A stretch of 24,307 nt of DNA, taken from IMG/VR virus record IMGVR_UViG_3300027796_000310, positions 1 to 24,307 of that record; one strand, written 5' to 3'. The translations under genes and the position numbers were made by a program. This DNA comes from a virus. This document shows positions 1,585 to 22,331 of the stretch, piece by piece (within the stretch, counting starts at the first letter, position 1; each line of letters begins with the position of its first letter). A model generated the notes under the pieces. It worked only from the letters and a program-made list of their open reading frames with translations. It did no database searches and was not told the origin of the DNA.

Positions 1585-2097
1585 TTAATTGGCGATTGAC
1601 AGAGCAGAGAGAATTTTGGCAGAGAGATTGGTGCCATTGACAATAACATTGCCGCCGATCATGTCGATCTCGTGAATTACGTTTTTGTTGATGCTATAGC
1701 GGTAGTAAGTCAACGGCATCTCAATCTTCAGCTCATTGAGCTTCTTGCGCTCGACATCGCCCCAATCGAGCGATTTCCAGCGACCGCGAACAGACACTTC
1801 GATCGCGTTCGTTCTGCCGCCGTCTCCAGTGACTTCGGCCCCCAACAAACGGAGGCCAATGCCCGATGGATTGTTGACCCCCCACCGCCGGAGGACCTCG
1901 ACGACAAAGCCGCCCAGAGTGAATTCAAGTTTCAGCGAAGCCTGACCCAAATCGATTTCAATCGGCCCCGCCATACCGGCAGCGCACCATTCCTCCATCT
2001 GGCGTTCCAGTTTCGGGAGTTTGATATTCTTCGCCCGTCCGGCCATTCCATTGCCATCGACGAAAACATTGAAGTCCTTGAGGATTGCTGGAAGCAT
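1585..2097 (-). CDS. FII: Major tail tube protein FII
   Basis: A 170-residue protein beginning MLPAILKDFNVFVDGNGMAG, with the P2 FII features: the N-terminal LKDFNVFVDG stretch, a central beta-rich body and RGRWKSLDWGDVERKK near residue 110. P2 FII is 172 residues. It forms the inner tube of the contractile tail through which DNA passes. It starts 10 bases after FI and is followed by E, the canonical order. I saw no disruption. Confidence 0.93.
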   Translation of the reverse strand: MLPAILKDFNVFVDGNGMAGRAKNIKLPKLERQMEEWCAAGMAGPIEIDLGQASLKLEFTLGGFVVEVLRRWGVNNPSGIGLRLLGAEVTGDGGRTNAIEVSVRGRWKSLDWGDVERKKLNELKIEMPLTYYRYSINKNVIHEIDMIGGNVIVNGTNLSAKILSALSIAN

Positions 2098-2107
2098 TTC
2101 TATTTCC

Positions 2108-3277
2108 TTACGCGGTCATTTTCGCGGCAAAATCGATCAGATATTCATCTGTAATGCTCTGTTCAAGCGTCAGGTTTTCCAAAGGTGGAACCGGCGTGTA
2201 ATTGTAAGTGATGTTTATCTTTCCGGACTTGACCATATCCTTGTCATTTTTGCTGGGGTCGAACCATGCTTCGCCACCAATCAGGTAACCATTCAGAATC
2301 AATTCGCGGAATTTCGCGTTGATCCCCTCGACGATATCGCGGGCGAGGCTGGGGTGGATCGGCAGATCGATAGCCCAGAAATGTGCCTCGGCCATGGTGT
2401 CGGCGAGAACATGAGCGGTCCGGGTGTAATTCTCGAACGCGAACAGAGGGTCTTCTGAGCAGGTGCGGGACCCCCAAAAACGGAATCCTCCCTTGCGGAT
2501 CAGCGTCGTGACCTCATGCGCGTTGAGATAACCGGCGTCGGTCGAGGAATCCTGCAAATCCCAGAACACGTCCTTGGTGATTCCGGTAACCCCCTTGACC
2601 TCGACATTGGACAGGGTTTTGTGCCAGCCGGTTTCCTCATCGATCTTGGCCCGCAGTCCCAGGGCTCTGGCCGTGGCCCATTCGGTGCGGGCGGTGTTGG
2701 CGGTCCCGTCCCACGAAACAAAGTCCGGCCAAAGTAGCATCAACTCGCGGTCACCAAAGAAATCGCGATATGCCACAGCGTCTTCGATGGTATCGCACTC
2801 GTGGCAGGAAGCGTAGACAAACGCCCGCATCTGCTTTGACACTGCGACCATTTGGGCGGTGACTTCATGGGTGTCGAGGCCCGGCGCCCCCAAAATCCGG
2901 GGCGTGACTCCCAGGGCAGATTTCGCCGCAGTCAGAGCCCGAATGCCGGTTTTCACCCCGCTGGTGGTGCTGCCGATGACATTGCTGGTGGTTTCCGCCG
3001 TCGTGGCGCCAGTCGCAACCCGAACTGCCACAATGGCCGGGCTGCCGTGATCGGCGATTGCATTGAGCACATGGGGCAAAGTCCCGTTGTCGCCAGCCTT
3101 GCCAATGGCCGAAGCGACATCGGTGATCAAGGTCGGCCGGCCGAGCGGGAAAGTGGTGGCGTCGGCATCATCCCCGGTCACCACGACCCCGATGACTGCG
3201 GTTTCGATGGTGTTGATGGGACGGGTGCCATCCGAGAGTTCGATGATCCTTACGCCGTGGTGATAATCACTGGGCAT
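2108..3277 (-). CDS. FI: Contractile tail sheath protein FI
   Basis: A 389-residue sheath protein (P2 FI is 396). The N-terminus MPSDYHHGVRIIELSDGTRP and the GVVVTGDDADATTFPLGRPT segment are typical of P2-like sheaths. The C-terminus (NYTPVPPLENLTLEQSITDE, ending FAAKMTA) matches the conserved sheath C-terminal domain. It polymerises around the tube and contracts on infection. AGGAAG precedes the ATG by a short A-rich spacer. In P2 a separate late promoter lies before FI; here the 61 bases upstream hold only a weak TTTATA and none of the 26-bp dyads found before P, V and com. Confidence 0.95.
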   Translation of the reverse strand: MPSDYHHGVRIIELSDGTRPINTIETAVIGVVVTGDDADATTFPLGRPTLITDVASAIGKAGDNGTLPHVLNAIADHGSPAIVAVRVATGATTAETTSNVIGSTTSGVKTGIRALTAAKSALGVTPRILGAPGLDTHEVTAQMVAVSKQMRAFVYASCHECDTIEDAVAYRDFFGDRELMLLWPDFVSWDGTANTARTEWATARALGLRAKIDEETGWHKTLSNVEVKGVTGITKDVFWDLQDSSTDAGYLNAHEVTTLIRKGGFRFWGSRTCSEDPLFAFENYTRTAHVLADTMAEAHFWAIDLPIHPSLARDIVEGINAKFRELILNGYLIGGEAWFDPSKNDKDMVKSGKINITYNYTPVPPLENLTLEQSITDEYLIDFAAKMTA

Positions 3278-3338
3278 GTTTTTTCTTCCTATAAAACGGG
3301 GGGTAAGGAGGAAGGGGGTCGCGGCGATGGGAGGAGGG

Positions 3339-4016
3339 TCAGGCCTTTGGCCACGTCACCGTCGCGACGATCGAATCGACTTCAGCGAGGGATGTCGCAA
3401 CGTCAATCGCGGCTTTTGCCGCCCGGTAGAGGGTGCGGCAGGCTGCGATATGCGATTTGCTTAACTCCCACAGCGCCAGGACTTCCGCGACTGATGCCCA
3501 GATCGTGCCGTCATTGGTGCCAATCAGATAGCCGGCGCGGCTCCAGCCGGCGGTGCCGTCGGAGATCTCGGTCTGATATTCGGCCGACCAAGTTGGCTCG
3601 GTCGTGCCGGAGATACCGGGGGTGGTGCAGAGATAATAGACTCCACCAGCCAGCAACACGGCGCTGCGGTCCTGTGTCGTGTCGGCCGCCCAGGCGGTGG
3701 CCCGGTTTTCGGCTATCAATGCAAGCTGATAGGCGCTATCGAGGTTAGCCTGATCGGTGCCGGTAAGGGTGTAGGTTCGTGTCTTGCCAGTAACAGAACA
3801 ACGAAACCCGCGCTCGATCGCCGTCGCGCAGGCGTTGGACAGAGTGGTAGCGGCATGAGTCTTTGCCTCGGCCATCTTGGCTAAAGCATATCCTGCGAAC
3901 ATTGTTTCCAGTTCGGATTCGGCCGGCTCGTGGTCGAAGAAAACCTCGTCGGGTGAGACGGTCATGGGATCGTCCCAAGCTCGGAAACTCAAGCCATTAT
4001 CTGAATAAGCGTACAT
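3339..4016 (-). CDS. Tail fibre assembly-like protein (DUF4376-like central region)
   Basis: A 225-residue protein directly after the fibre gene, with start and stop overlapping as TGATG. The N-terminus MYAYSDNGLSFRAWDDPMTV resembles tail fibre assembly or tip proteins. The segment around residues 55-75 (AEAKTHAATTLSNACATAIE) resembles DUF4376, common in fibre-associated phage proteins. A small beta-rich insertion (LAGGVYYLCTTPGISGTTEP) may be a carbohydrate-binding or structural module. The position matches P2 gene G. Likely a fibre chaperone or distal fibre component; the exact role is not shown. Confidence 0.6.
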   Translation of the reverse strand: MYAYSDNGLSFRAWDDPMTVSPDEVFFDHEPAESELETMFAGYALAKMAEAKTHAATTLSNACATAIERGFRCSVTGKTRTYTLTGTDQANLDSAYQLALIAENRATAWAADTTQDRSAVLLAGGVYYLCTTPGISGTTEPTWSAEYQTEISDGTAGWSRAGYLIGTNDGTIWASVAEVLALWELSKSHIAACRTLYRAAKAAIDVATSLAEVDSIVATVTWPKA

Positions 4017-7000
4017 CAGATACTATCCTCCCACCCCATACAGTAAAGAGAAGCCGTCCCCAATGTGCTTCCATAATAAATATTTCTACTTTCGAGCAGA
4101 AAATTAATAGATCCGACCGCAACAGCCGAACTGGTGTAAAAAGAAGAGAGCAAAGGAATATCTTCCGTATAGGCTGAAATTTCCTCCGGTTTAGCGTTAT
4201 CGTTCGGTCCTGCGTATGCGTAGCCACCAGCTTTTCCTGGGGCGAGAACCAGGGATATGGCGGTCGCTGTTGCCGGGACAGTTGCACTTACAGCAACGGC
4301 TTTCGGCCATGTCGCGCTTCCAGACGCGAGCTTGGGACACGAAGGCAGATTGATCCCACCCGAAACGTATTGGGCGCGGCGGCCGCATTGGCGCGTTTCT
4401 ATTAAGTTCCCACTGCCGTTGGTCCTTACTGCTCCAACGCGAATTTTGTGGGTATAGCCACTGGGTAGTGTCGGGTCTGTAGCGGAAAGTGACAGCATCG
4501 CCACCGTACCGGCAAATCCATCAATAACCCAAACATGATACCAAGTGTTTCCAGAGACTGAACCTACGTCAATTCCTCCCGCCCCACTTACATTGGCTGC
4601 TATCGTTTCTGATACAGATATCTTCGTCTTTGGTTTCGCACTGTTATCCGCCAAAACCAGCTCATCAGCCGAGATGCTGATGCCTGTAGACGATGTGACC
4701 TGCACTTTGAGACCACGGTGATAGCCGTGAGCAGAGTTAACCATTGCGGCTTGAACGAAAGCCGTTGAGGCAAGCTGGCTGGTGCTGGTCCCAACAGCGG
4801 CCGTCGGGGCAGTCGGAATCCCCGTCAGGACTGGGCTGGACAAGGGCGCTTTCAGGGCCAGGGCATTGGTCATCGTCGTGGCGAAATTGGGATTGTCGCC
4901 CAGAGCCGCCGCCAGTTCGTTGAGGGTGTTGATAGTCCCCGGCGCAGCATCCACCATCGCCGCGATGGCCGCTTGGACAAAAGCGGTGGTCGCGAGTTGG
5001 GTGGTGCTGGTCCCGGCGGGAGCAGTTGGTGCTGCCGGATTCCCCGTCAAAACCGGACTATCCAAGGGCGCTTTGAGCGCGAGGGCAGCCGCCATTGTCG
5101 CGGCGAAATTTGGATCGTCACCAATCGCGGCCGCGAGTTCTTTGAGGGTGTTGAGAGCCCCTGGCGCAGCGTTTACCAACGCCGCGATGGCCGCTTGGAC
5201 AAAAGCGGTGGTCGCGAGTTGGGTGGTGCTGGTCCCGACGGCAGCGGTTGGTGCTGCCGGATTCCCCGTCAAAACCGGACTATCCAAGGGCGCTTTGAGC
5301 GCGAGGGCATCTGCCATTGTCGCGGCGAAATTTGGATCGTCACCAATCGCGGCCGCGAGTTCTTTGAGGTTGTTGAGCATGGCCGGCGCGCCGGCGATCA
5401 GGGCGAGGATCGTCTCATGCACAAAAGCCGTGGAGGCGATTTGGGTCGTATTGGTGCCGACTGTGGCAGTCGGTGCCCTCGGCGTTCCAGCAAAAACCGG
5501 ACTGGACAAGGGCGCTTTCAAGGCCAAGGCATTGATCATCGTCGTGGCGAAATTAGGATCGTCGCCGATGGATGCCGCCAAACTGTCCAAAGTATTGAGC
5601 GTAGCCGGTGCGCCAGCGATCAGAGCGAGGATCGCTGCTTGGACAAAAGCAGTAGAAGCGAGCTGATTACTATTGGTGCCAACAGCGGCCGTCGGGGCGG
5701 TCGGCGTTCCGGTCAAGGCCGGGCTGGCCAGGGGGGCTTTCAGGGCCAGGGCATTGGTCATCGTCGTGGCGAAATTGGGATTATCCCCCAGAGCGGCAGC
5801 CAGTTCGTTAAGGGTGTTGAGAGCCCCTGGCGCAGCATCCACCATCGCCGCGATGGCTGCTTGGACAAAAGCGGTGGTCGCGAGTTGGGTGGTGCTGGTC
5901 CCGGCGGGAGCAGTTGGTGCTGCCGGATTCCCCGTCAAAACCGGACTATCCAAGGGCGCTTTGAGCGCGAGGGCAGCCGCCATTGTCGCGGCGAAATTCG
6001 GGTCATTTCCCAGGGCGGCTGCGAGTTCTTTGAGGGTGTTGAGGGTCTCCGGCGCACCATCGATCAGGGCGAGGATCGTCTCATGCACAAAAGCCGTGGA
6101 GGCGATTTGGGTCGTATTGGTGCCGACTGTGGCAGTCGGCGCCCTCGGCGTTCCAGTAAAAACCGGGCTGATCAACGGCGCCTTTAATTCGAGTGCGCCG
6201 GCCATTGCTTCGGCAAAATTCGTAGCAAAATTGCGATCGTTACCAATCGCGGCTGCGAGTTCTTTGAGGGTGTTGAGTTTCTCCGGCGCACCATCGATCA
6301 GGGCGAGGATCGTCTCATGCACAAAAGCCGTGGAGGCAAGCTGGGTGTTATTGGTGCCGACCGTGGCAGTCGGCGCCCTCGGCGTTCCAGTAAAAACCGG
6401 GCTGTCCAAGGGCGCTTTGAGCGTGAGGGCAGTGGAGAAATTCGTTGCGAAATTGGGATCGTTGCCAATGGCGGCCGCGAGTTCTTTGAGGGTGCTGAGA
6501 GTACCTGGCGCAGTACTGATCAAGGCGTTGATCGTCGCTTGCACGAAAGCTGTGGAAGCGATTTGGGTCGTATTGGTGCCGACTGTGGCAGTCGGTGCGG
6601 TTGGTTTTCCGGTCAGCGTCGGGCTGACCAACGGCGCTTTAAGCGCAAGGGTAGCAGCCATTGTCGCGGCGAAATTCGGATCATTTCCCAGGGCGGAAGA
6701 AAGCTCGCGCAGCGTATCCAGAGCCCCGGGTGCGGCATTAACCAATGCCGTCAGTGCCGCTTGAACAAAAGCGGTGGAAGCAATCTGAGTGGTGTTGGTA
6801 CCGACGGCGGCCGTCGGGGCGGTCGGAATCCCCGTCAGGACCGGACTGGCCAGTGGAGCTTTGGGAGCAATCGCGGCCGCGATCAGGGCGACAATCGCCA
6901 GATCAAGTTGATTGGTCAGCGACAAGTCAAGCGCGCGTCCTGACCGTTTAATCACCGCCTCAATTTGAGCCTTCAGCCAAACACTACGCTCAGTCAACGA

Positions 7001-7135
7001 CCGCAACGGCCAGTTGTCAATACCATCTGGACCACCCAAAACAGGGTCATCAGTCTGGAGTTCATAGATTCCACTCGGCCAGGAGGGATTATCGTCCAAA
7101 AAAGGGCCGGTAAGGCGAGACCTTCCTGTTGACAT
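4016..7135 (-). CDS. H: Long tail fibre protein with about 9.5 tandem 74-residue repeats (P2 H-like)
   Basis: A 1039-residue fibre. Residues 1-90 form an N-terminal baseplate-attachment region (IDNWPLRSLTERSVWLKAQI). Residues 91 to about 800 hold nine full and one partial repeat of roughly 74 residues, each with LKAPLxSPxxTGxPxAPTA, TQxAxTAFV and TLKELAAAIGDDPNFA. The first part resembles the phage tail fibre repeats of T4/P2-type fibres. Residues 800-1039 (from SAHGYHRGLKVQVTSSTG) are non-repetitive and probably form the receptor-binding tip. The start overlaps the stop of I (TAATG). Several repeats are nearly identical in DNA, so copy number may vary by recombination. It should trimerise and determine host adsorption. 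Confidence 0.9.
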   Translation of the reverse strand: MSTGRSRLTGPFLDDNPSWPSGIYELQTDDPVLGGPDGIDNWPLRSLTERSVWLKAQIEAVIKRSGRALDLSLTNQLDLAIVALIAAAIAPKAPLASPVLTGIPTAPTAAVGTNTTQIASTAFVQAALTALVNAAPGALDTLRELSSALGNDPNFAATMAATLALKAPLVSPTLTGKPTAPTATVGTNTTQIASTAFVQATINALISTAPGTLSTLKELAAAIGNDPNFATNFSTALTLKAPLDSPVFTGTPRAPTATVGTNNTQLASTAFVHETILALIDGAPEKLNTLKELAAAIGNDRNFATNFAEAMAGALELKAPLISPVFTGTPRAPTATVGTNTTQIASTAFVHETILALIDGAPETLNTLKELAAALGNDPNFAATMAAALALKAPLDSPVLTGNPAAPTAPAGTSTTQLATTAFVQAAIAAMVDAAPGALNTLNELAAALGDNPNFATTMTNALALKAPLASPALTGTPTAPTAAVGTNSNQLASTAFVQAAILALIAGAPATLNTLDSLAASIGDDPNFATTMINALALKAPLSSPVFAGTPRAPTATVGTNTTQIASTAFVHETILALIAGAPAMLNNLKELAAAIGDDPNFAATMADALALKAPLDSPVLTGNPAAPTAAVGTSTTQLATTAFVQAAIAALVNAAPGALNTLKELAAAIGDDPNFAATMAAALALKAPLDSPVLTGNPAAPTAPAGTSTTQLATTAFVQAAIAAMVDAAPGTINTLNELAAALGDNPNFATTMTNALALKAPLSSPVLTGIPTAPTAAVGTSTSQLASTAFVQAAMVNSAHGYHRGLKVQVTSSTGISISADELVLADNSAKPKTKISVSETIAANVSGAGGIDVGSVSGNTWYHVWVIDGFAGTVAMLSLSATDPTLPSGYTHKIRVGAVRTNGSGNLIETRQCGRRAQYVSGGINLPSCPKLASGSATWPKAVAVSATVPATATAISLVLAPGKAGGYAYAGPNDNAKPEEISAYTEDIPLLSSFYTSSAVAVGSINFLLESRNIYYGSTLGTASLYCMGWEDSI
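4736..6865 (-). repeat. Tandem array of about 222-bp units inside the fibre gene
   Basis: Nine complete units and a tenth partial unit, mostly 74 codons (the third has four extra codons). Three unit types can be told apart: units 3, 4 and 7 share VFxGTPRAPTATVGT and STAFVHETILALI; units 5, 8 and 9 share VLTGNPAAPTA and TAFVQAAIAA; units 6 and 10 are closer to unit 1. The order C-D-E (4-6) is followed by C-D-D-E (7-10), suggesting duplication of a block. Units 5 and 9 are almost identical in DNA (around 5840-6000 against 4950-5110). Confidence 0.9.
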
Positions 7136-7701
7136 TACGCAATCCCGTAATTGTAAGTCCCGTCGCGCCGAATCACGCCGTTATGAATTGCGGCACACTC
7201 GACGTAATCGAGAGAGAGGAGGTGACTGCGCTTCGGCGCTATTGCGGCCAGAATCTGGCGAACCTGATCGGCTTGGCGGTTGGTGATCGGTCGTTCCAAC
7301 ACGACGCGGTAGCAGGCCCATCCCGCCGCCCACCCGTGGAAAAATCGGCCATTACGGCTGATGCTGCCGTCATGACGGCGGCGGTGCAGGCCTTCCAGGA
7401 TGATCGGCGTTTGGTTAAGCACCGCTGCGATTACGGTTTTGATGGACCAAACCGTCCCTTTGAAGCGGTGGGTATCAAAGCTGGCGGCGATCACTGCCCG
7501 CTTTGTTGCTTCGGACCAGTCTTCATCCCAGAAATCGACCGAAAGCTCCCATGCCAGCCAGGGTAGGAGATCCGCCGGGCACCGCCAGGGATCCTTCAAA
7601 ATCGTCAGCGGCACCGGAATCGCTGAAATCTCGCCATTGACTGTCGTCACGGCCCGCAGCAACGCCGTTGCATTCGGGGGGAGCAGAGTCGGATCAGCCA
7701 T
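7135..7701 (-). CDS. I: Tail protein gpI (baseplate)
   Basis: A 188-residue protein of the P2 gpI family (P2 gpI is 176 residues). The family signature is clear in PWRCPADLLPWLAWELSVDF at residues 37-56, followed by HRFKGTVWSIKTVIAAV. It is a baseplate component at the base of the fibres. It overlaps J by 8 bases and the fibre gene by one base, so translation is probably coupled across V-W-J-I-H. Confidence 0.93.
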   Translation of the reverse strand: MADPTLLPPNATALLRAVTTVNGEISAIPVPLTILKDPWRCPADLLPWLAWELSVDFWDEDWSEATKRAVIAASFDTHRFKGTVWSIKTVIAAVLNQTPIILEGLHRRRHDGSISRNGRFFHGWAAGWACYRVVLERPITNRQADQVRQILAAIAPKRSHLLSLDYVECAAIHNGVIRRDGTYNYGIA

Positions 7702-8566
7702 TGGCGGTCACCGCGCGAAGGGTAATGCCGGTACAGCGCGGAGCAGCAGTCTGGCCCGGATCAATCGCCTCAACAGTCGGGGCGAGCAAACGAACTTGTC
7801 GCACCCCGGGGCAATGTAACGCCCGATCTAGGCCTGAACGCGCCACGAGGGCACCGAGAACGTGGCAATCCGTGGTGTATTTTTCGACAGCGTTTCGAGC
7901 CGCCTGCAAGATCAGCGCACTATCGATGCCGGTGAATGGCTCGATTTCAGCGTCCACTGCGTAGCAAACGATCCCAGCAGATGCGAGTAAAACCGTGTCG
8001 TTGAGCGGCCGTACTTTTTCTGCATTCACCGCCGCCGCCACAATCCTTAGCAATTCGGCCGAGGCAACCCCATCTTTTTCACTTGACAAGATTGTAATCA
8101 AGACATCCCCAGGCTGGGGTGATGTAATCGCAACATCCTTGACGCGGATATCAGCCGAGAGGGCGTGGTATTTGTAGGCCCCCTCAGGGCCGGCGGTGCT
8201 GAAGCCCTCCATCGCCAACTGAGCGCGGGCACGCAACCGAGAATCGATCTCGCCGGGCAATCGCTGCACTCTATAAAAGGCCACCAGATTGTCCAGATCG
8301 CCTTTAGTGGCATGAGCCAACAGCAAAGCCCGGGCCGCGTCATTGACCCGCCCACGCAACAACAGTTCGCGATAGGCCCCCTCTTGGAGCTGGATCAGGA
8401 TCGGATCGCTTTCCCGCGTCGGATCCCAGGATCCGAGGATACCGGCAGCGGTCGCCAGTTGCCGGAACCGGGCGATGCGCGCGGCCAGGATCGTCTCGTA
8501 ATCCAGCGCCTCCACCACCGTGGGCGAGGGCAGCAACGACAAATCGATGGGAGTGCCGCTGCTCAT
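7694..8566 (-). CDS. J: Baseplate wedge protein gpJ
   Basis: A 290-residue member of the baseplate J family (P2 gpJ is 302). It starts MSSGTPIDLSLLPSPTVVEA and continues LDYETILAARIARFRQL, a standard gpJ N-terminus. The interior has RGRVNDAARALLLAHATKGD and LSADIRVKDVAITSPQPGDV, the conserved J-like core. It forms the baseplate wedge with gpW and gpI. ATGA overlap with W. Confidence 0.94.
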   Translation of the reverse strand: MSSGTPIDLSLLPSPTVVEALDYETILAARIARFRQLATAAGILGSWDPTRESDPILIQLQEGAYRELLLRGRVNDAARALLLAHATKGDLDNLVAFYRVQRLPGEIDSRLRARAQLAMEGFSTAGPEGAYKYHALSADIRVKDVAITSPQPGDVLITILSSEKDGVASAELLRIVAAAVNAEKVRPLNDTVLLASAGIVCYAVDAEIEPFTGIDSALILQAARNAVEKYTTDCHVLGALVARSGLDRALHCPGVRQVRLLAPTVEAIDPGQTAAPRCTGITLRAVTANG

Positions 8567-8904
8567 CGCACATTCACCGGGACGTCAGCGGTAATCGTCA
8601 GATTGTCGCTGATTACCCTTAAGACGAGCTGTAGACGGCCCTGTCCACCGATCCCCACCGAGAGGGTTCCGCGCACGACATCGACCCGGTCTTCCCAAAT
8701 ATAGAGTGCAGCGGCGGCAGCGGCGATCAGACGCAGTGCCCCGGACTCATTGCCGGGGCTATCGACTAGGTCGAACAGCTCGCTGCCAAATTTCCGGCGC
8801 ATGACCCGGCTGCCGACGGGGGTGGTGAGAATCGTCTCGACCGATTGCCGGATATCAGCCAGCTCATCAATTTCGGTGCCGGTCAGGGCGTCAACACTGG
8901 CCAT
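8563..8904 (-). CDS. W: Baseplate protein gpW (gp25-like)
   Basis: From the ATG at 8904 the product is 113 residues, matching P2 gpW (115). It contains IRQSVETILTTPVGSRVMRR, the hallmark of the GPW/gp25 family, a T6SS and phage sheath-initiator-like wedge protein. An ATG at 8937 would add 11 residues and overlap V, and the open frame extends to 9009; neither option has a better ribosome binding site. The 8904 start lies one base after the V stop codon and fits family length. Confidence 0.9.
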   Translation of the reverse strand: MASVDALTGTEIDELADIRQSVETILTTPVGSRVMRRKFGSELFDLVDSPGNESGALRLIAAAAAALYIWEDRVDVVRGTLSVGIGGQGRLQLVLRVISDNLTITADVPVNVR

Positions 8905-8905
8905 C

Positions 8906-9463
8906 TCAGTGCCTGTGGTGGTTAGAATTGGCGCCATCGCTGAGGATCGAGCCGGTGGCATGAACATCGCCCTGGATCTCGACCTTGCCTTGGATCTCCA
9001 GATCGCCAATCAGGCAGAGGCGGGGCGCTTTGGCGGTAATCTCGACCTCCGATTCGGCGGTGATGGCCTCCCGGGCGCGGACGGTCACCGCCCCGACCGC
9101 CTCGACGGTCAGACGGTGTTCGGCACTGTCGTAGGCAATCCGGGTGCCGTCGTCGTATTCGATCAGATCCTGCGTGCCGAGATCGGCCGGGGCGGGATGG
9201 GCGGCGCTGTAAAAGGTCTGAAGGATGCGGGCGTTGCCTGGATCGCCGGAAACCGATCCGAGAGTGACCGGGGTGCCGATCCGCAACGGCCGCCAGCGAC
9301 GAAAATTGGCGCCAATTTCAGCCGGCACCGGCAACCAGTCGGTCAGCCGGCCGCCAGCCAGCTCAACGCGCACCATGGCGGTCGCATGATCGACTGCGGC
9401 GATCACACCGTGATTCAGGACGTTTTCCAGGCGGCGGGCCTGATCGGTGCGGGTCTGGCTCAT
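8906..9463 (-). CDS. V: Baseplate spike protein gpV
   Basis: The product is 185 residues from ATG 9463 (MSQTRTDQARRLENVLNHGV); an upstream ATG at 9499 would give 197. P2 gpV is 211. The N-terminal OB-fold region contains HGVIAAVDHATAMVRVELAG. The C-terminal part has the strand pattern EVEITAKAPRLCLIGDLEIQ then GKVEIQGDVHATG, and the protein ends SNHHRH. The final His-x-His cluster matches the iron-binding tip of P2-type spikes. The spike pierces the outer membrane. I prefer 9463 because it lies exactly 44 bases from an upstream dyad, the same distance as at gene P. GGGGG precedes it, but with very short spacing. Confidence 0.9.
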   Translation of the reverse strand: MSQTRTDQARRLENVLNHGVIAAVDHATAMVRVELAGGRLTDWLPVPAEIGANFRRWRPLRIGTPVTLGSVSGDPGNARILQTFYSAAHPAPADLGTQDLIEYDDGTRIAYDSAEHRLTVEAVGAVTVRAREAITAESEVEITAKAPRLCLIGDLEIQGKVEIQGDVHATGSILSDGANSNHHRH

Positions 9464-9507
9464 CCCCCGATCATGGGCCAAGCCGGAGTGGCGGTTCATC
9501 CGGGTTC

Positions 9508-9533
9508 GAGTTGGCGGAGGCGGTTGCCAACTC
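9508..9533 (-). promoter_or_regulatory. Candidate late-promoter box before V (26-bp dyad)
   Basis: On the minus strand it reads GAGTTG, nine bases, TCCGCCAACTC. The outer arms GAGTTGGC and GCCAACTC are a perfect 8-bp inverted repeat with a 10-base centre. The same pattern occurs before P and before com. It ends 44 bases before the V start. P2 has its PV late promoter at this position, activated by Ogr at TGT-N12-ACA, a pattern not found here. Function is inferred. Confidence 0.5.
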
Positions 9534-9576
9534 TGTCGGGCTTTCAGCCTTTCACGGGATGCGCGCGGATGGCATC

Positions 9577-9598
9577 AGTGCATCTGATGCACTATATT
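9577..9598 (+). promoter_or_regulatory. Palindromic operator and -10 for the DUF4160-DUF2442 pair
   Basis: AGTGCATC, T, GATGCACT (9577-9593) is a perfect 17-bp dyad. Its last base overlaps TATATT (9593-9598), a good -10 hexamer, 22 bases before the preferred start of the DUF4160 gene at 9621. No consensus -35 is seen. The layout suits autorepression by the helix-turn-helix protein encoded by the second gene. Confidence 0.5.
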
Positions 9599-9620
9599 GG
9601 CAGGGATGACGGAGGGTGCG

Positions 9621-9851
9621 ATGGTGACGATGGGGCGGTGGGACGGGATCAAGATCGAGATCCGCACCGATCACAACCCGCCTCATTTCCACGTGACCTC
9701 GGCCGAAGCTGATCTGATGATCGATCTGCGTAGCTTTGAAATCCTGGCCGGCTCCGGGCCGCGTCAGGTCGCCGAGCGGGCAATCGCTTGGGCTCGGGCG
9801 CACCAGGATGAATTGATGGCGAAATGGAGGGAGCTCAATGAGCGGGAATGA
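9621..9851 (+). CDS. DUF4160 protein, probable toxin-antitoxin partner
   Basis: A 76-residue protein with the DUF4160 core IKIEIRTDHNPPHFHVTSAE (residues 10-29) and the basic-acidic C-terminus common in this family. The start at 9621 is chosen because GGAGGG lies 4 bases upstream; ATG 9606 and TTG 9597 are also in frame. The gene overlaps the next one by 14 bases, and the DUF4160 plus DUF2442 pairing is a recurrent two-gene unit thought to be toxin-antitoxin-like. The biochemical activity of DUF4160 is not established. It lies on the strand opposite to its neighbours in the P2 S-V slot, which is usual for cargo. Confidence 0.75.
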   Translation: MVTMGRWDGIKIEIRTDHNPPHFHVTSAEADLMIDLRSFEILAGSGPRQVAERAIAWARAHQDELMAKWRELNERE

Positions 9852-10308
9852 CTGGATCACCGTCGGCGCGCCGATTCCCAAGATCGCCGCCGTCAAGGCC
9901 GGGGCACCGTTCGAGGTGACGGTGACGTGGCGCGACGGCACCTGCGACCGGATCGACCTCGCCCCGTTCCTCGCCGCCTTCAAGGTGTACCGGCCCTTGC
10001 GCCAGGATCCGGCATTGTTTGCCGCCGTCCAGGTGGAGGAGCATGGCAGCGGTCTCGTCTGGTCAGACGGGATCGACATCGCCGCCTATACCCTCGATCG
10101 TCTCGCCCAGGTGTCGCGACCAATGAGCCGTGAGGCATTTAGGGATTGGATGAAGCGCAACGGCCTGACCCTCGATACCGCCGCCCCGGTGCTTGGCCTG
10201 TCGCGCCGACAGGTTGCCGCTTATTCCAGCGGTGAGAAGCCGATCGACCGCTCGACCAAGCTGGCCTGCCGGGGGTATGACGCGATTATGCGGGTGGCGG
10301 CAGAGTAG
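9838..10308 (+). CDS. DUF2442 protein with C-terminal helix-turn-helix
   Basis: A 156-residue protein. Residues about 10-90 are DUF2442-like (FEVTVTWRDGTCDRIDLAPF, then FKVYRPLRQDPALF and GSGLVWSDGIDIAAYTLDRL). Residues about 100-150 form an XRE-like helix-turn-helix (FRDWMKRNGLTLDTAAPVLG, SRRQVAAYSSGEKPI). Stand-alone DUF2442 proteins lack this DNA-binding tail in many cases. It probably acts as the antitoxin and repressor, binding the dyad at 9577-9593. GGAGGGAG precedes the ATG, which lies inside the end of the DUF4160 gene. Confidence 0.75.
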   Translation: MSGNDWITVGAPIPKIAAVKAGAPFEVTVTWRDGTCDRIDLAPFLAAFKVYRPLRQDPALFAAVQVEEHGSGLVWSDGIDIAAYTLDRLAQVSRPMSREAFRDWMKRNGLTLDTAAPVLGLSRRQVAAYSSGEKPIDRSTKLACRGYDAIMRVAAE

Positions 10309-10405
10309 GGGCGGCAAGCTCATCCATAAAATCAGGGCGGCCTTCTTCAGCGACCACTTTATGCTCATCCCTGCGGTCAGGCGGTGGCGATGCCTCCCGG
10401 GAAGG

Positions 10406-11662
10406 TTACAGCTTTTTCTCGGCGTTCAGGAACATCGGGAAGAAGCTGCGCTGATTTTTGGCCTTGATGACGTCGTTGACACTGATTGTATTTGCTTTCC
10501 GCCGTTCGCCACCTGCTGGCGTAATCACCTTAAGGTCCGCGCTTTCGATGATTGCCGCATGGACATCATCGGTGTGTGCCGGGGTGACGTTGTAGATGCT
10601 CTCGTAGAATTCCATTACGGAGATGGCGTCGCCTGCTTCCATCACGAGACGAGGAATGTCTCCCAAAAGCTGCTCCTTCGCGGAAGCGCGGCCGTTGTCG
10701 TCGAACAGGTAGAGCATTCCCTCGTCATGCCGCGGATCATAGGACAACATATTGAGACCAGACCGACCGAAATGCGCCTGATGGCTCGCGTTGTCGTGAA
10801 GAATGTTATTGTAAACCTGTCGCGCACGATAAGCGTTAGCAAAATGGATCAGCCAGTACCGCCAACCGCCGGGATTGTTGATCGAGAAGGGGCTGACATA
10901 GGGTGCGCAAAGACGGAATGCGTCGAAGACGATCTTCTCCGCCGTGCCAAGCCAATCCTTCTGGCTCACAATAAGCCCATCAAGCGCCTGGACGTCGTCG
11001 CGGGGGAGTCCTAGGTGCTCAAGTTGAGCACTCAGCCGCTCCGGCTGATCTTTCTGAAGAAACGCCAAAAGTGAACTGATGACGAATGTATAAAAAATCT
11101 CTGCAGCAGGATATGAGTGCATGATATCGAGTATAGTCTCTCGATCAACATGGCTATGGCCGCACTGATCTAGGTTGAAGAGAACGCTCCGATACCGTCC
11201 TTGCTCTAAAAACAACTTAACATTTGGGTAGACACTCTCAAATAAGTCGTTCAGATATTCAACGCGCAGATGGAGCTTTGGACAAGTCTCTGCGATATCC
11301 AATTGCATCGGTACGACATGTGTTTTTAGAAGCTCGATCGCATCGGGACTCGCGTCATTGAAAATCAGCAGACATTCGACCTCGATCGAACCGATCCCCT
11401 GAACCGCACGCTGGGTGTTTACCGCCTCGACGGCCCGCTTCAGTTCCTCAATGAAAATCAGCGGCGAACCCGATGTACCGCACTTATATCGGCCACCTCC
11501 AGCGAATCCATCGACAATTGCCAGTCGAAAGCGCTCTTGCTGGGGCAGTCTACAACGGACAGTCAGATAGTCGAATACATATTCTCGAAGAATTTTGTGT
11601 TTTCGCCGAGAATGCTCATCAATATTAGCACCATCCGCCCATTCATATCGTTTTTGCACCAT
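10406..11662 (-). CDS. tcmP: Three-Cys-motif partner protein TcmP
   Basis: A 418-residue protein. The N-terminal region KRYEWADGANIDEHSRRKHK is characteristic of TcmP. IVDGFAGGGRY (residues 49-59) resembles motif I of Rossmann methyltransferases, and FNLDQCGHSHV (162-172) sits where a motif IV-like strand would be. The C-terminal 80 residues are winged-helix-like (ISVMEFYESIYNVTPAHTDD). TcmP genes are known to co-occur with three-Cys-motif (Gp37/Gp68, DUF5131) genes, and here one lies 27 bases upstream. The molecular role is unknown; nucleic-acid modification or defence is possible but is inference. Confidence 0.85.
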   Translation of the reverse strand: MVQKRYEWADGANIDEHSRRKHKILREYVFDYLTVRCRLPQQERFRLAIVDGFAGGGRYKCGTSGSPLIFIEELKRAVEAVNTQRAVQGIGSIEVECLLIFNDASPDAIELLKTHVVPMQLDIAETCPKLHLRVEYLNDLFESVYPNVKLFLEQGRYRSVLFNLDQCGHSHVDRETILDIMHSYPAAEIFYTFVISSLLAFLQKDQPERLSAQLEHLGLPRDDVQALDGLIVSQKDWLGTAEKIVFDAFRLCAPYVSPFSINNPGGWRYWLIHFANAYRARQVYNNILHDNASHQAHFGRSGLNMLSYDPRHDEGMLYLFDDNGRASAKEQLLGDIPRLVMEAGDAISVMEFYESIYNVTPAHTDDVHAAIIESADLKVITPAGGERRKANTISVNDVIKAKNQRSFFPMFLNAEKKL

Positions 11663-11689
11663 TTCGAAACACCATCTTTTGTCGAAATT

Positions 11690-12472
11690 TTATGCCAATA
11701 CCTGCTTCGAGGCTGGCATTTCATCCCATGTTTTTCCTCTATACTCGCGGCCGTTGGCTTTTTTCGAGCGTTTCTTGTTGTCGCTGCCCCAGGTACCCCA
11801 TTGCTTGAAGAAAAAGGCCGTACCGGCTGACAGACATTGAGCATAGATTTCATCGATCCATTCCTCGCGGATAAGACGCGCGGACTTGCCGCTTTCCCCG
11901 CCAACGATCGCCCAATCGATGTCCCGAAGATCGATGGTACCAACGGCTCCTATAAGCGGCTCGAAGGAGATGAAGCGGATCGCGGCTGGTGCCTCCCGCA
12001 GATGGCCGATTCGGTCGACTACATTCGCATCCTCAATGCTAGTGCCGAGCCAGACATTGGGTAGAACTTCTCCGATCTTGTCGGCGACCAGTTCCGCCAT
12101 GCGTTCTGGCCGTTTGGTAAGAATCTGGTAGTTGTGCCAAGGTGTCTCGCGCATCACTTGCCAGACATCGAGAATAAAATCTTTGCTGACCTTCTCATGA
12201 AACAGGTCGCTCATCGAGTTTACGAAAATCTTGCGGGGTTTGCGCCAGCGATGCGGAATCAGCAGTGCTTCGCGATCCTCACGCACCACGCCGCTCCACG
12301 CGGTACCTACCCCCGTCTTGCGGGTTAGCCCCGCATATTTATCGACTCCCATCGCCTCCAGACGTTTGGCCATTTCCAACGCATAGCAATGGGCGCAGCC
12401 GGCGGTAACGATCGAACATCCGGCGACGGGATTCCAAGTGGCATCCGTCCACTCGATTTGGGTTTCAGCCAT
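11690..12472 (-). CDS. Three-Cys-motif protein, phage Gp37/Gp68 family (DUF5131)
   Basis: The product is 260 residues from ATG 12472, preceded by GGAGGG. An upstream in-frame start would add 21 residues, but the family normally begins near MAETQIEWTDATWNPVAGC. Cys19, Cys26 and Cys29 (C-x6-C-x2-C, GCSIVTAGCAHCYA) resemble an iron-sulfur cluster site of radical-SAM-like enzymes. Other family blocks are RKIFVNSMSDLFHEKV, QILTKRPERM, VWLGTSIED, FISFEPLIG and WAIVGGESG. It forms an operon with tcmP. A possible -10 (TACAAT, 12522-12517) lies 45 bases upstream without a clear -35. The pair sits right after gene S, a P2-family cargo position. Confidence 0.87.
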   Translation of the reverse strand: MAETQIEWTDATWNPVAGCSIVTAGCAHCYALEMAKRLEAMGVDKYAGLTRKTGVGTAWSGVVREDREALLIPHRWRKPRKIFVNSMSDLFHEKVSKDFILDVWQVMRETPWHNYQILTKRPERMAELVADKIGEVLPNVWLGTSIEDANVVDRIGHLREAPAAIRFISFEPLIGAVGTIDLRDIDWAIVGGESGKSARLIREEWIDEIYAQCLSAGTAFFFKQWGTWGSDNKKRSKKANGREYRGKTWDEMPASKQVLA

Positions 12473-12528
12473 CTTGCCCTCCCAGGTATCCTTCCATTCG
12501 TCGCGACGTTGACCCCATTGTATCGCGT

Positions 12529-12987
12529 TTACCACTCAATCGCCGCCAATATCCGCGCCCGGACGGCGGCGACATCTTCGGCGGGTAGACCGAGCAGGAG
12601 CCGGGCGGCATATTGGTGCTGAGGGCCGCCCGGCTCTACTGCGTCCACCTCACCGAAATGGTGGACCGAGGCCAGTCGCCGGTTGCGGCCGGAATAGCCC
12701 AGCTCGAGTCCGGCCGGACTGGTTTTGAGGGCAAGCCGGCGGGTCTCGCGCAAGCCCTGCAACATTTTGGCGGTGGAGCGGATCCGGCCCCAGCGGTCCC
12801 GTCTCCGAGGCTCCCACGGGATGCCATCGGGGGCGATCTGGGCACCGATCCGGCGCTGATTGCGGCGCCGCAAATCGCGGCCGATCTCCAGCAGCAGGCG
12901 GCGCCGGGCCTCGGGATCGAGCGCGGCCAGAGCTTGCATCAACCAGCGTTCCAGCCCGGCCAACCCGGCATCGGGCGCTCTGGTCAT
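12529..12987 (-). CDS. S: Tail completion protein gpS
   Basis: A 152-residue protein (P2 gpS is 150). The start at 12987 overlaps the stop of R as ATGA; the open frame runs farther upstream, but that part is out-of-frame R sequence. Conserved segments are RRLLLEIGRDLRRRNQRRIG, DGIPWEPRR and the final HFGEVDAVEP and QYAARLLLGLPAEDVAAVR. gpS is needed for tail completion and joining. It ends the O-to-S operon; the next minus-strand gene is cargo. Confidence 0.92.
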   Translation of the reverse strand: MTRAPDAGLAGLERWLMQALAALDPEARRRLLLEIGRDLRRRNQRRIGAQIAPDGIPWEPRRRDRWGRIRSTAKMLQGLRETRRLALKTSPAGLELGYSGRNRRLASVHHFGEVDAVEPGGPQHQYAARLLLGLPAEDVAAVRARILAAIEW

Positions 12988-13412
12988 GTGATTCCCAGGG
13001 CCAGGGCGGCGAGATCCGGGCCAAAGGCATCGGGATCGGCCGTCGGCACCAGCGCCACCCCGTTCGCCCGCTCGCTGGCGGCAATCAGTTCGGTCAGGTC
13101 GAGAGCGATCGAGACGTCCGCCGCCTTGTGGTCCAGAAAATCGACATGAAAACGCAGAGCCTCCTCGGGGTTGGCGTCGGGACAGGTGGCATGCAACCAA
13201 TCCAGGGCGATAAACAACAGATCCTGGGGCGCCCCGACATAGTCGGTCACGATCAGATGGGCGGTGTAATCGAGTAGGAAGGCGTGGTTGTCGCCGATAT
13301 CCCCACGCCAGGACCGGACTTTGCCCTTCTCGGCAAAGGTCAGCAGTTTGTCCGCCCGGATCCGCAGTGGCGAGGCCAGCACCGCCAGACGCAAGTCGGT
13401 CAGCTTTTTCAT
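12984..13412 (-). CDS. R: Tail completion protein gpR
   Basis: A 142-residue protein (P2 gpR is 155) starting MKKLTDLRLAVLASPLRIRA. The P2-family pattern includes FLLDYTAHLIVTDYVGAPQD, LFIALDWLHATCPDANPEEA and DFLDHKAADVSIALDLTELI. It works with gpS in tail completion. It overlaps both the Rz gene and S by ATGA junctions. Confidence 0.92.
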   Translation of the reverse strand: MKKLTDLRLAVLASPLRIRADKLLTFAEKGKVRSWRGDIGDNHAFLLDYTAHLIVTDYVGAPQDLLFIALDWLHATCPDANPEEALRFHVDFLDHKAADVSIALDLTELIAASERANGVALVPTADPDAFGPDLAALALGIT

Positions 13413-20764: not shown

Positions 20765-21157
20765 TCAGCCAAGCTTCTCCCGGGCCGCGACCGCCAGAAA
20801 ACCAGACCGGCTCATCCCTTGTGTTCGCGCGGCGGCATCAACTCGGCTCAACAGCCCTTCGTCCATCGTGGCGTTGAACCGGATTGCCTTACCGGGAAGA
20901 TCCACCCGCACCAGAACCCGGCAAACCTCGTCAACCTCGGAATTAGGCTCGATCCGGTCCAGTGGGGTCGGATCGGGCAACGGATCCCCGTCCTCGATGA
21001 TGCCGCGCAGATGGAGGCTCAACGCCTCCTCAGCCGAACGAGCGGCCATCTCTATGGTATCCCCCGCGCTGACGCAGCCGGGAAGGTCGGGGAAAAACAC
21101 CCCGAAGCCCGGCTCGTCGCCTCGTTCGATGATTGCCGGGTAATAACGGATCGCCAT
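20765..21157 (-). CDS. hicB: HicB antitoxin
   Basis: A 130-residue protein. The N-terminal HicB-like domain includes EPGFGVFFPDLPGCVSAGDT, a degraded RNase H-like fold. The C-terminal region (IRFNATMDEGLLSRVDAAAR, GMSRSGFLAVAAREKLG) is a ribbon-helix-helix type DNA-binding domain. It should neutralise HicA and repress the hicA promoter. It starts 10 bases after hicA. Such pairs stabilise mobile elements or act in phage defence. Confidence 0.92.
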   Translation of the reverse strand: MAIRYYPAIIERGDEPGFGVFFPDLPGCVSAGDTIEMAARSAEEALSLHLRGIIEDGDPLPDPTPLDRIEPNSEVDEVCRVLVRVDLPGKAIRFNATMDEGLLSRVDAAARTQGMSRSGFLAVAAREKLG

Positions 21158-21445: not shown

Positions 21446-22162
21446 TCAACAGACCGGGATAGCCTCGACCCTGGCCCGAATCGCCGCAACATGAACCGGC
21501 GAAATGTCGCTGACGATCGCCCGCCGGCCGGTGCGGAGCGCTGCCTCGGCCAGACTGCCCCCGCCCGCGAACACATCGACCACGGTGCCATCTTCCGGGG
21601 TGGTGGCGCGGATGATCGTCTCCAGCAGATCAACCGGCTTGGCGGTGGGATGATTCCGCTTGGCTGGTGCCACCCGCTTGGCTGGGATCACATTGCCGAC
21701 CGTGACATCATAACGCGGGGTGCTGGTCCCCTTGGCAAAATGCAGCACCAGTTCGTGGCGAGCCCGGAAGCTGCTGCTGCCCAGTCCGGTGGACAGCTTG
21801 TCCCACACCACTAGGTTACGCCAGCGCAGGCCGGAACTCTCCAGCGCCGGGGCCAACGCCGCCACCATCCGCCAGTCGCAGAACACGCACAGGCTGCCCT
21901 TATCGGTGAGAATGCGGTGAGCCTCGATCGCCACCTGGCGCAGCAGCCATACCAGCCCCGTCGTCGTCATCGCATCGCCCTGGAACCAATCAGCCTTGGT
22001 CATTCCTGGTGCGGCGGTGCGAGCGGCCTCGGTGAAACCTCCGGCGCAATAAGGCGGATCGAGGATCACCGCATTGGCGGATTCATCGCCCAGATCGGCT
22101 AACGCCTCCAGACAATCCGCCTGGGCGAGACGCACGCGGCCAAGATCGGTCCAATTCGGCAT
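21446..22162 (-). CDS. DNA adenine/cytosine-N4 methyltransferase (beta class), com-linked
   Basis: A 238-residue protein from ATG 22162 (MPNWTDLGRVRLAQADCLEA); a TTG 18 bases upstream is also in frame. DPPY (residues 35-38, VILDPPYCAGG) precedes HPTAKPVDLLETII and the SAM-binding VVDVFAGGGSLAEAALRTGR, the motif order of beta-class N6-adenine or N4-cytosine enzymes. No restriction gene is adjacent, so it is probably an orphan phage methyltransferase protecting or marking phage DNA. The start lies inside com, overlapping it by 80 bases, as mom overlaps com in Mu, although this is not a Mom protein. AAGGGA lies 9 bases before the ATG. Confidence 0.87.
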   Translation of the reverse strand: MPNWTDLGRVRLAQADCLEALADLGDESANAVILDPPYCAGGFTEAARTAAPGMTKADWFQGDAMTTTGLVWLLRQVAIEAHRILTDKGSLCVFCDWRMVAALAPALESSGLRWRNLVVWDKLSTGLGSSSFRARHELVLHFAKGTSTPRYDVTVGNVIPAKRVAPAKRNHPTAKPVDLLETIIRATTPEDGTVVDVFAGGGSLAEAALRTGRRAIVSDISPVHVAAIRARVEAIPVC

Positions 22163-22331
22163 GTTGAGCGTTCCCTTCAAGGTCAGGACGCTCGGGGCGT
22201 TCGGGAGAGGGGCACGCGGCCCTCTGATGGCAATTCAAGGCCCCGCAACGGGGGCATTTGATCTCGATCACCCGGCAATCAGCCGCCCGGGCCAGCAACC
22301 GCCCGCAAGCGGCGCACCGTATGGACTCCAT
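22083..22331 (-). CDS. com: Com-family zinc-finger translational regulator
   Basis: An 82-residue protein. MESIRCAACGRLLARAADCR with a following IEIKCPRCGALN gives two CxxC knuckles and closely resembles phage Mu Com (which begins MKSIRCKNCNKLL). Mu Com binds mom mRNA and opens a hairpin hiding its start. Here com overlaps the methyltransferase start and a hairpin covers that gene's ribosome binding site, so the same control is likely. The C-terminal 40 residues are Arg/Pro-rich and may be constrained mainly by the overlap. AGGTGA lies shortly upstream of the ATG. Confidence 0.85.
   Translation of the reverse strand: MESIRCAACGRLLARAADCRVIEIKCPRCGALNCHQRAACPSPERPERPDLEGNAQHAELDRSWPRASRPGGLSGGVSRSGR
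22166..22193 (-). promoter_or_regulatory. Hairpin over the methyltransferase ribosome binding site
   Basis: On the mRNA (minus strand), GAGCGT and ACGCTC form a 6-bp stem; inside it CCT can pair with GGG of AAGGGA, the ribosome binding site 9 bases before ATG 22162, with one bulged A. The hairpin ends 3 bases before the start codon. This is the arrangement expected for Com-dependent translational activation. Confidence 0.5.

Follow-up and report, generated by a model that had tools for sequence, protein, structure and literature searches.

The window, by which is meant the whole stretch of 24,307 nucleotides analysed here, corresponds to positions 1 to 24,307 of the IMG/VR virus record IMGVR_UViG_3300027796_000310. 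It carries an island of four genes, in which DUF4160 and DUF2442 genes on the plus strand face tcmP and DUF5131 genes on the minus strand (Table 1). The surrounding genes follow the P2 order, R-S-[island]-V-W-J-I. An earlier note on this DNA had described the locus as two two-gene modules lying between S and V and converging with under 100 bases between them; the four genes, the gpS-like and gpV-like flanks and a stop-to-stop distance of 97 nt all agree with that description.

Table 1. Genes and other features of the island and of its two borders, in window positions
Feature	Position	Strand	Remarks
gpV-like baseplate protein, slot border	8906..9499	-	phrog_9992 3.1e-23
DUF4160, DhiT-type toxin candidate	9621..9851	+	76 aa; ATG 9621, GGAGGG upstream; PF13711 3.5e-15
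DUF2442 + weak C-terminal HTH, DhiA-type antitoxin candidate	9838..10308	+	PF10387 4.2e-8
Intermodule gap	10309..10405		97 nt between stop codons of the converging modules
TcmP (three-Cys-motif partner; PADLOC PDC-M30A)	11662..10406	-	TIGR04474 2.4e-64; PDC-M30A 6.1e-20, residues 13-276
DUF5131 (PDC-M30B/PDC-M41B)	12472..11690	-	ATG 12472-12470; PF07505 3.9e-100; 27 nt upstream of tcmP
Leader	12473..12528	-	gpS stop to DUF5131 ATG; Shine-Dalgarno-like GGGAGGG
gpS-like tail completion protein, slot border	12529..13026	-	phrog_26 1.4e-27

The late genes and the DUF5131-tcmP pair share one direction, and only the DUF4160/DUF2442 pair runs against it. No intrinsic terminator or terminator-like structure was found in the gap between the modules. 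In the window, the DUF5131-tcmP pair lies co-directional behind gpS, and no promoter belonging to the pair could be recognised. P2-type Ogr sites (TGT-N12-ACA) are absent from the window, which is below chance expectation, and consequently late promoters could not be placed. The GC content of DUF5131-tcmP is 48-55% versus 60-68% in its surroundings, and that of the DUF4160/DUF2442 pair is 62-66% and not distinct. An assembly artefact was considered for the latter pair and rejected, because a second IMG/VR contig (L090) repeats window positions 6080-10204 at 100% identity, so that its presence in the slot does not depend on a single contig. Elsewhere in the window are a HicB-looking protein adjoining gpQ (20765-21157, judged by eye), an N6_N4-type DNA methyltransferase (21446-22180, Pfam 1.3e-28), and a tail fibre of 1,039 aa made of many diverged repeats, each of ~75 residues (4016-7135).

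In the plus-strand module the DUF4160 gene comes first and overlaps the DUF2442 gene by 14 nt, which is the gene order of dhiTA from Dickeya dadantii, a type II toxin-antitoxin system that has been validated by experiment and in which the toxin gene leads (PMC8198452). The DUF4160 protein matches the NCBIfam model toxin_DhiT with 48 bits (1.4e-12), short of the 100 set as equivalog cut-off, and so the window pair is called DhiTA-type and not a DhiT equivalog. The earlier naming of the module as DUF4160-DUF2442-HTH holds for both domains, with the C-terminal HTH appearing as a weak match only (HTH_31, E=0.033; the transcriptional regulator family phrog_14076, E=6e-4). The same toxin-first architecture with the same 14-nt overlap is present on the Methylobacterium plasmid pD, and DhiTA relatives occur on small sphingomonad plasmids; on the one plasmid inspected, no DUF5131-TcmP pair stands beside the homologue. 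Judged by its sequence, the module is an ordinary candidate toxin-antitoxin pair of the validated type II kind, as had been suggested by calling it toxin-antitoxin-like, and it probably serves as a stabilisation or abortive module.

The DUF5131 protein of the other module matches the PADLOC models PDC-M30B/PDC-M41B at about 1e-94 to 5e-100. It contains the cysteine motif C19-x6-C26-x2-C29, exactly as the earlier note had read it, and the three cysteines are invariant in an alignment of 56 DUF5131 sequences, together with D89, H113, K120, E171, E193, R199, K223, and Q224. This CX6CX2C spacing is not the CX3CX2C of radical SAM enzymes. The predicted model (pLDDT 94) finds spore photoproduct lyase as its top six matches in the PDB (E 2e-3 to 4e-3, TMq 0.40-0.47); MiaB and viperin stand further down the list and are weak by E-value, viperin being much the weaker. 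A match to rSAM_mob_pairA (9e-20) falls below the cut-off of that model, profile comparison gave no significant match to three distant radical-SAM proteins, and sequence searches against solved structures gave no match for either DUF5131 or TcmP.

TcmP has a methyltransferase-like N-terminal half and a weak winged HTH near the C-terminus (GMT-wHTH 8.1e-5, below cut-off). Its predicted model (mean 75, core >90) was compared by Foldseek, and class I SAM methyltransferases were matched in both libraries; against the PDB, methyltransferases make up 10 of the 11 matches with E <= 0.001 (best 9e-5), at low TM. Structural matches are low for both models, with TM of about 0.45 for DUF5131 and 0.3 for TcmP. 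Among the motif I-like and acidic motifs looked at, D51/G55/G57, N102-D103, and D165 are conserved. Because the CX3CX2C motif is absent and the profile comparison was not significant, the two models suggest a pair that may work like a radical-SAM/methyltransferase pair, a likeness that stops short of proof of being one.

The P2 orf30 site, as well as the TO and Z regions, is a place of horizontally acquired genes (PMC3091744). Since a single-protein scan for gpV among viral contigs returned the same virus only, the S-V slot was surveyed in phage records and in a small alphaproteobacterial sample. P2, Acica, and KS14 have nothing in the slot, and their gpS and gpV are ~65-85 nt apart. One or two genes running against the late genes occupy it in Sirocco, RE-2010, and ST437-OXA245phi4.1, and in the P2-like phage KL3 it holds a DNA methyltransferase with the same orientation. 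Of three alphaproteobacterial relatives, one (L163) has an empty slot and two (L165 and L166) have an ORF co-directional with gpS. In L165, a P2-type prophage, this ORF (1956-2495) encodes a peptidase M15 domain and reads in the direction of the tail genes; the one in L166 looks similar. The slot thus carries variable genes, as the earlier note had held, and this variability together with the published description makes cargo at this site expected. The island of the window lies between gpS and gpV and is absent from the relatives; at 2.9 kb and with two modules, it ranks among the larger of the few examined. The main described defence hotspot of E. coli P2 is the cos-proximal A-Q region, not S-V (PMC9122126). 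Another virus contig that has P2-type tail genes (L089) likewise carries DUF5131-TcmP, in this case with a gpV-like gene on one side and a gpW-like gene on the other. The island there (1895-8597) encodes NA37, a PDC-S33-like protein with a RelA/SpoT domain, DUF5131, TcmP, and an unknown protein of 214 aa.

DUF5131 and TcmP together constitute the PADLOC candidate system PDC-M30: its A and B models are both matched, and the genes are adjacent in the usual order, with a spacing of 27 nt where 20-40 nt is usual. PDC names are assigned by guilt-by-embedding and not by experiment, and among 100 strains of P. aeruginosa PDC-M30 occurs in 32, of which 68.8% are in the phage-resistant group (PMC10855318). 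A literature search found no experiment showing phage protection by DUF5131-TcmP. At the search sensitivity used, TcmP of the window type is present in 109 genome contigs, 61 plasmid records, 3 virus contigs, and 1 of 50,697 phage records. DUF5131 matches 159 of the same 50,697 phage records, many of them Gordonia and Mycobacterium phages and mostly lacking TcmP; DUF5131 alone is common, lytic phages included. In a sample of 385 alphaproteobacterial genomes, matches over the cut-off place TcmP in 29 (8%) and DUF5131 in 54. Within this sample DUF5131 lies within ~1 kb of 30 of the 31 TcmP genes, as counted by matching the coordinates of two result tables by eye, and the exception is located at the end of a contig; roughly half of the DUF5131 genes, in turn, lack a TcmP. 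It follows that TcmP depends on DUF5131 and not the reverse. At one locus (L077:7860-11242) the neighbour of a window-type TcmP is a divergent DUF5131, after which comes another TcmP-like protein, encoded on the opposite strand.

Other loci resemble the window at the DNA level from just upstream of the DUF5131 ATG (12483-12484) to near the tcmP stop, which identifies the pair as the unit that moved. A DUF5131-tcmP unit of 2,075 nt is 100% identical in Phenylobacterium haematophilum and Prosthecomicrobium hirschii, within 13 kb at 99.96% identity, and isolates of Celeribacter and Thalassospira have a 15-kb segment in common at 97.6%. The genera concerned fall into different orders. Assembly contamination may conceivably underlie the identical Phenylobacterium/Prosthecomicrobium pair but does not explain the 97.6% case. 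The near-identical copies across orders indicate a mobile and not a housekeeping pair, and TcmP is found on plasmids and integrative elements. A housekeeping operon was rejected on the grounds of the patchy distribution and of recurrent neighbours that include no housekeeping genes. A mainly non-mobile housekeeping context, named in the earlier note as the finding that would speak against its proposal, is thus contradicted by TcmP being in 29 of 385 genomes, by its mobile carriers, by cross-order exchange, and by the defence genes around it.

A PADLOC scan of 130 non-redundant neighbours returned type IIG RM, Hma, Hachiman, and DISARM-, BREX-, and Dpd-type models, and the matches were then checked one by one; the DISARM-, BREX-, and Dpd-type ones are probably overlapping helicase matches. 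A HamB-family helicase of Hachiman occurs in nine loci, with HamA downstream of tcmP in three (L014, L017, and L031). Type IIG RM stands beside the pair in two loci (L048 and L049), AbiE is also among the defence neighbours, and single loci have HmaA (L052), a CBASS cyclase (L003), and a PDC-S28 helicase that we take to be Hna-like (L006). At this last locus, on pSymA of Sinorhizobium meliloti (6147-11808), the pair and another TcmP-like gene, which adjoins the helicase, are convergent; in S. meliloti, NolR is reported to affect both Hna and a TcmP gene, one or other of the two TcmP-like copies at this locus (PMC12445080). Viral contig L088 has, 171 nt downstream of the pair, a dCTP-deaminase defence homologue; both there and in L087 the pair runs against the late genes. 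In 13 loci the gene right after tcmP is of the Mrr_cat type, and in 11 of these it overlaps the tcmP stop by 4 nt; this restriction-endonuclease-like gene (e.g., L041:11266-12219) is possibly a third component. An ArdC-like anti-restriction gene is present in 12 loci. Upstream of the pair and near a serine recombinase, a conserved protein of ~100 aa (MSNAAQKRAIKNYRARLTQRGFKRFEVMAL...) was seen at L041:8424-8726 and in eight other loci; it has no Pfam match. The neighbourhood evidence is guilt by association, and any enrichment is putative.

The slot is best explained as holding two independent pieces of cargo, a DhiTA-type toxin-antitoxin pair and a mobile DUF5131-tcmP pair that is most likely an anti-phage or superinfection-exclusion module, an explanation whose chances of being right are about even. 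It builds on computed gene content, pairing, mobility, a defence-rich neighbourhood, predicted folds, and invariant cysteines. This context supports defence, and we infer protection, cluster binding, catalysis, and the substrate. According to the proposed mechanism, DUF5131 would be a radical-SAM-type [4Fe-4S] enzyme chemically altering a nucleic acid or nucleotide. TcmP would be its obligate partner with a SAM-methyltransferase fold, binding the substrate, possibly via the winged HTH, and either methylating or presenting it. Incoming phage nucleic acid would thereby be marked or damaged; alternatively, self would be marked so that a nuclease can discriminate, of the Mrr type in some operons and of the host otherwise. 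The prophage would use such a module against rival phages. Several points count against this account. DUF5131 often occurs without TcmP, lytic phages included, and its chemistry is thus not specific to defence. The pair lies co-directional behind gpS without a recognisable promoter, which makes expression in the lysogen putative. The structural matches are low, and the profile comparison with radical-SAM proteins gave nothing significant.

The main rival to defence is that the pair acts on the DNA of its own carrier, be it a phage, a plasmid, or an integrative element, and modifies it against host restriction. Such counter-defence, which we regard as rather unlikely, would account for DUF5131 in phage records mostly without TcmP, for the ArdC-like genes, and for the DNA methyltransferase of KL3 in the same slot, and the shared direction of the window pair and the late genes would suit late modification of progeny DNA. 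It agrees poorly with the orientation against late genes in L087 and L088, the single phage record with TcmP, and the frequent direct adjacency to Hachiman, Hma, CBASS, and the Mrr nuclease. Somewhat less probable still is a role in which the pair has a tRNA, rRNA, or metabolite of the host as its target of modification and aids the lysogen without acting on phages. The tRNA enzyme MiaB among the weaker structural matches of DUF5131 and the wide spread of solo DUF5131 are consistent with such a role, but the patchy occurrence of TcmP, its recent cross-order transfer, and the lack of a housekeeping neighbourhood among the recurrent neighbours argue against it. A joint function of both modules, hinted at by the earlier term double island, would imply one four-gene defence or addiction system, with the DhiTA-like pair as a possible killing arm 97 nt away in the same slot. 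This is very improbable: the genes converge and so do not form one operon, GC differs between the modules, and DhiTA is a separate known kind of toxin-antitoxin, with homologues on small plasmids. The joint system was rejected because DhiT and DhiA match none of the other loci searched, including ~80 with DUF5131-TcmP, and the modules are best treated as independent.

The enzyme-like nature of both families, as read in the earlier note, holds. The defence role proposed there is partly supported, by mobility, patchiness, and defence neighbours, and it is qualified in three respects: the pair was already suspect as PDC-M30, the DhiTA neighbour is a separate module, and protection is putative, with modification of the carrier element's own DNA as a live rival. 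A bolder version, which we consider doubtful, is that DUF5131-TcmP would represent a chemically new class of anti-phage system: a radical-SAM-like enzyme with CX6CX2C and a partner with a methyltransferase fold would install or remove an unusual nucleic-acid modification, Mrr-type or other nucleases would act as exchangeable effectors, and P2-type phages would capture the pair repeatedly. Should the pair work as inferred in the main explanation, it would join viperin as another radical-SAM-like enzyme of bacterial immunity, one that differs in its cysteine motif and has a methyltransferase-like partner dedicated to it. PDC-M30 is a common defence candidate, being found in nearly a third (32/100) of the P. 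aeruginosa strains (PMC10855318), and the near-strict dependence of TcmP, the Mrr and Hachiman neighbours, and the repeated capture among tail genes make the hypothesis directly testable. The candidate system, the toxin-antitoxin kind, and the slot are all already known, which limits novelty; added here are the Mrr third gene, the Hachiman and dCTP deaminase contexts, another capture among tail genes, and the clue from structure.

Among known systems, DUF5131 is closest in predicted fold to spore photoproduct lyase, a radical SAM DNA repair enzyme, with which it also shares three invariant cysteines, and it has a weak fold match to the prokaryotic viperins, which are radical SAM antivirals. 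It differs from both in its CX6CX2C motif and its methyltransferase-like partner, and no significant sequence similarity to either was found. Restriction-modification systems with Mrr-type nucleases are resembled by the 13 relatives in which an Mrr_cat gene follows tcmP; the window differs in having no nuclease gene, with modification as the candidate activity. The DhiTA-type pair shares with dhiTA of Dickeya dadantii the overlapping arrangement of DUF4160 before DUF2442 and differs in its score below the DhiT equivalog cut-off and in the weak HTH match of its antitoxin. The island resembles the P2 orf30 or S-V moron slot (PMC3091744) in its site and in the variability of content, and differs in being longer (~2.9 kb) and composed of two modules. 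Finally, the DUF5131-tcmP pair corresponds to PDC-M30, to which PDC-M41 is related, in the model matches of both genes and in their adjacency and order, and the window copy is set apart by where it lies, in a slot between P2-type tail genes within a virus record.
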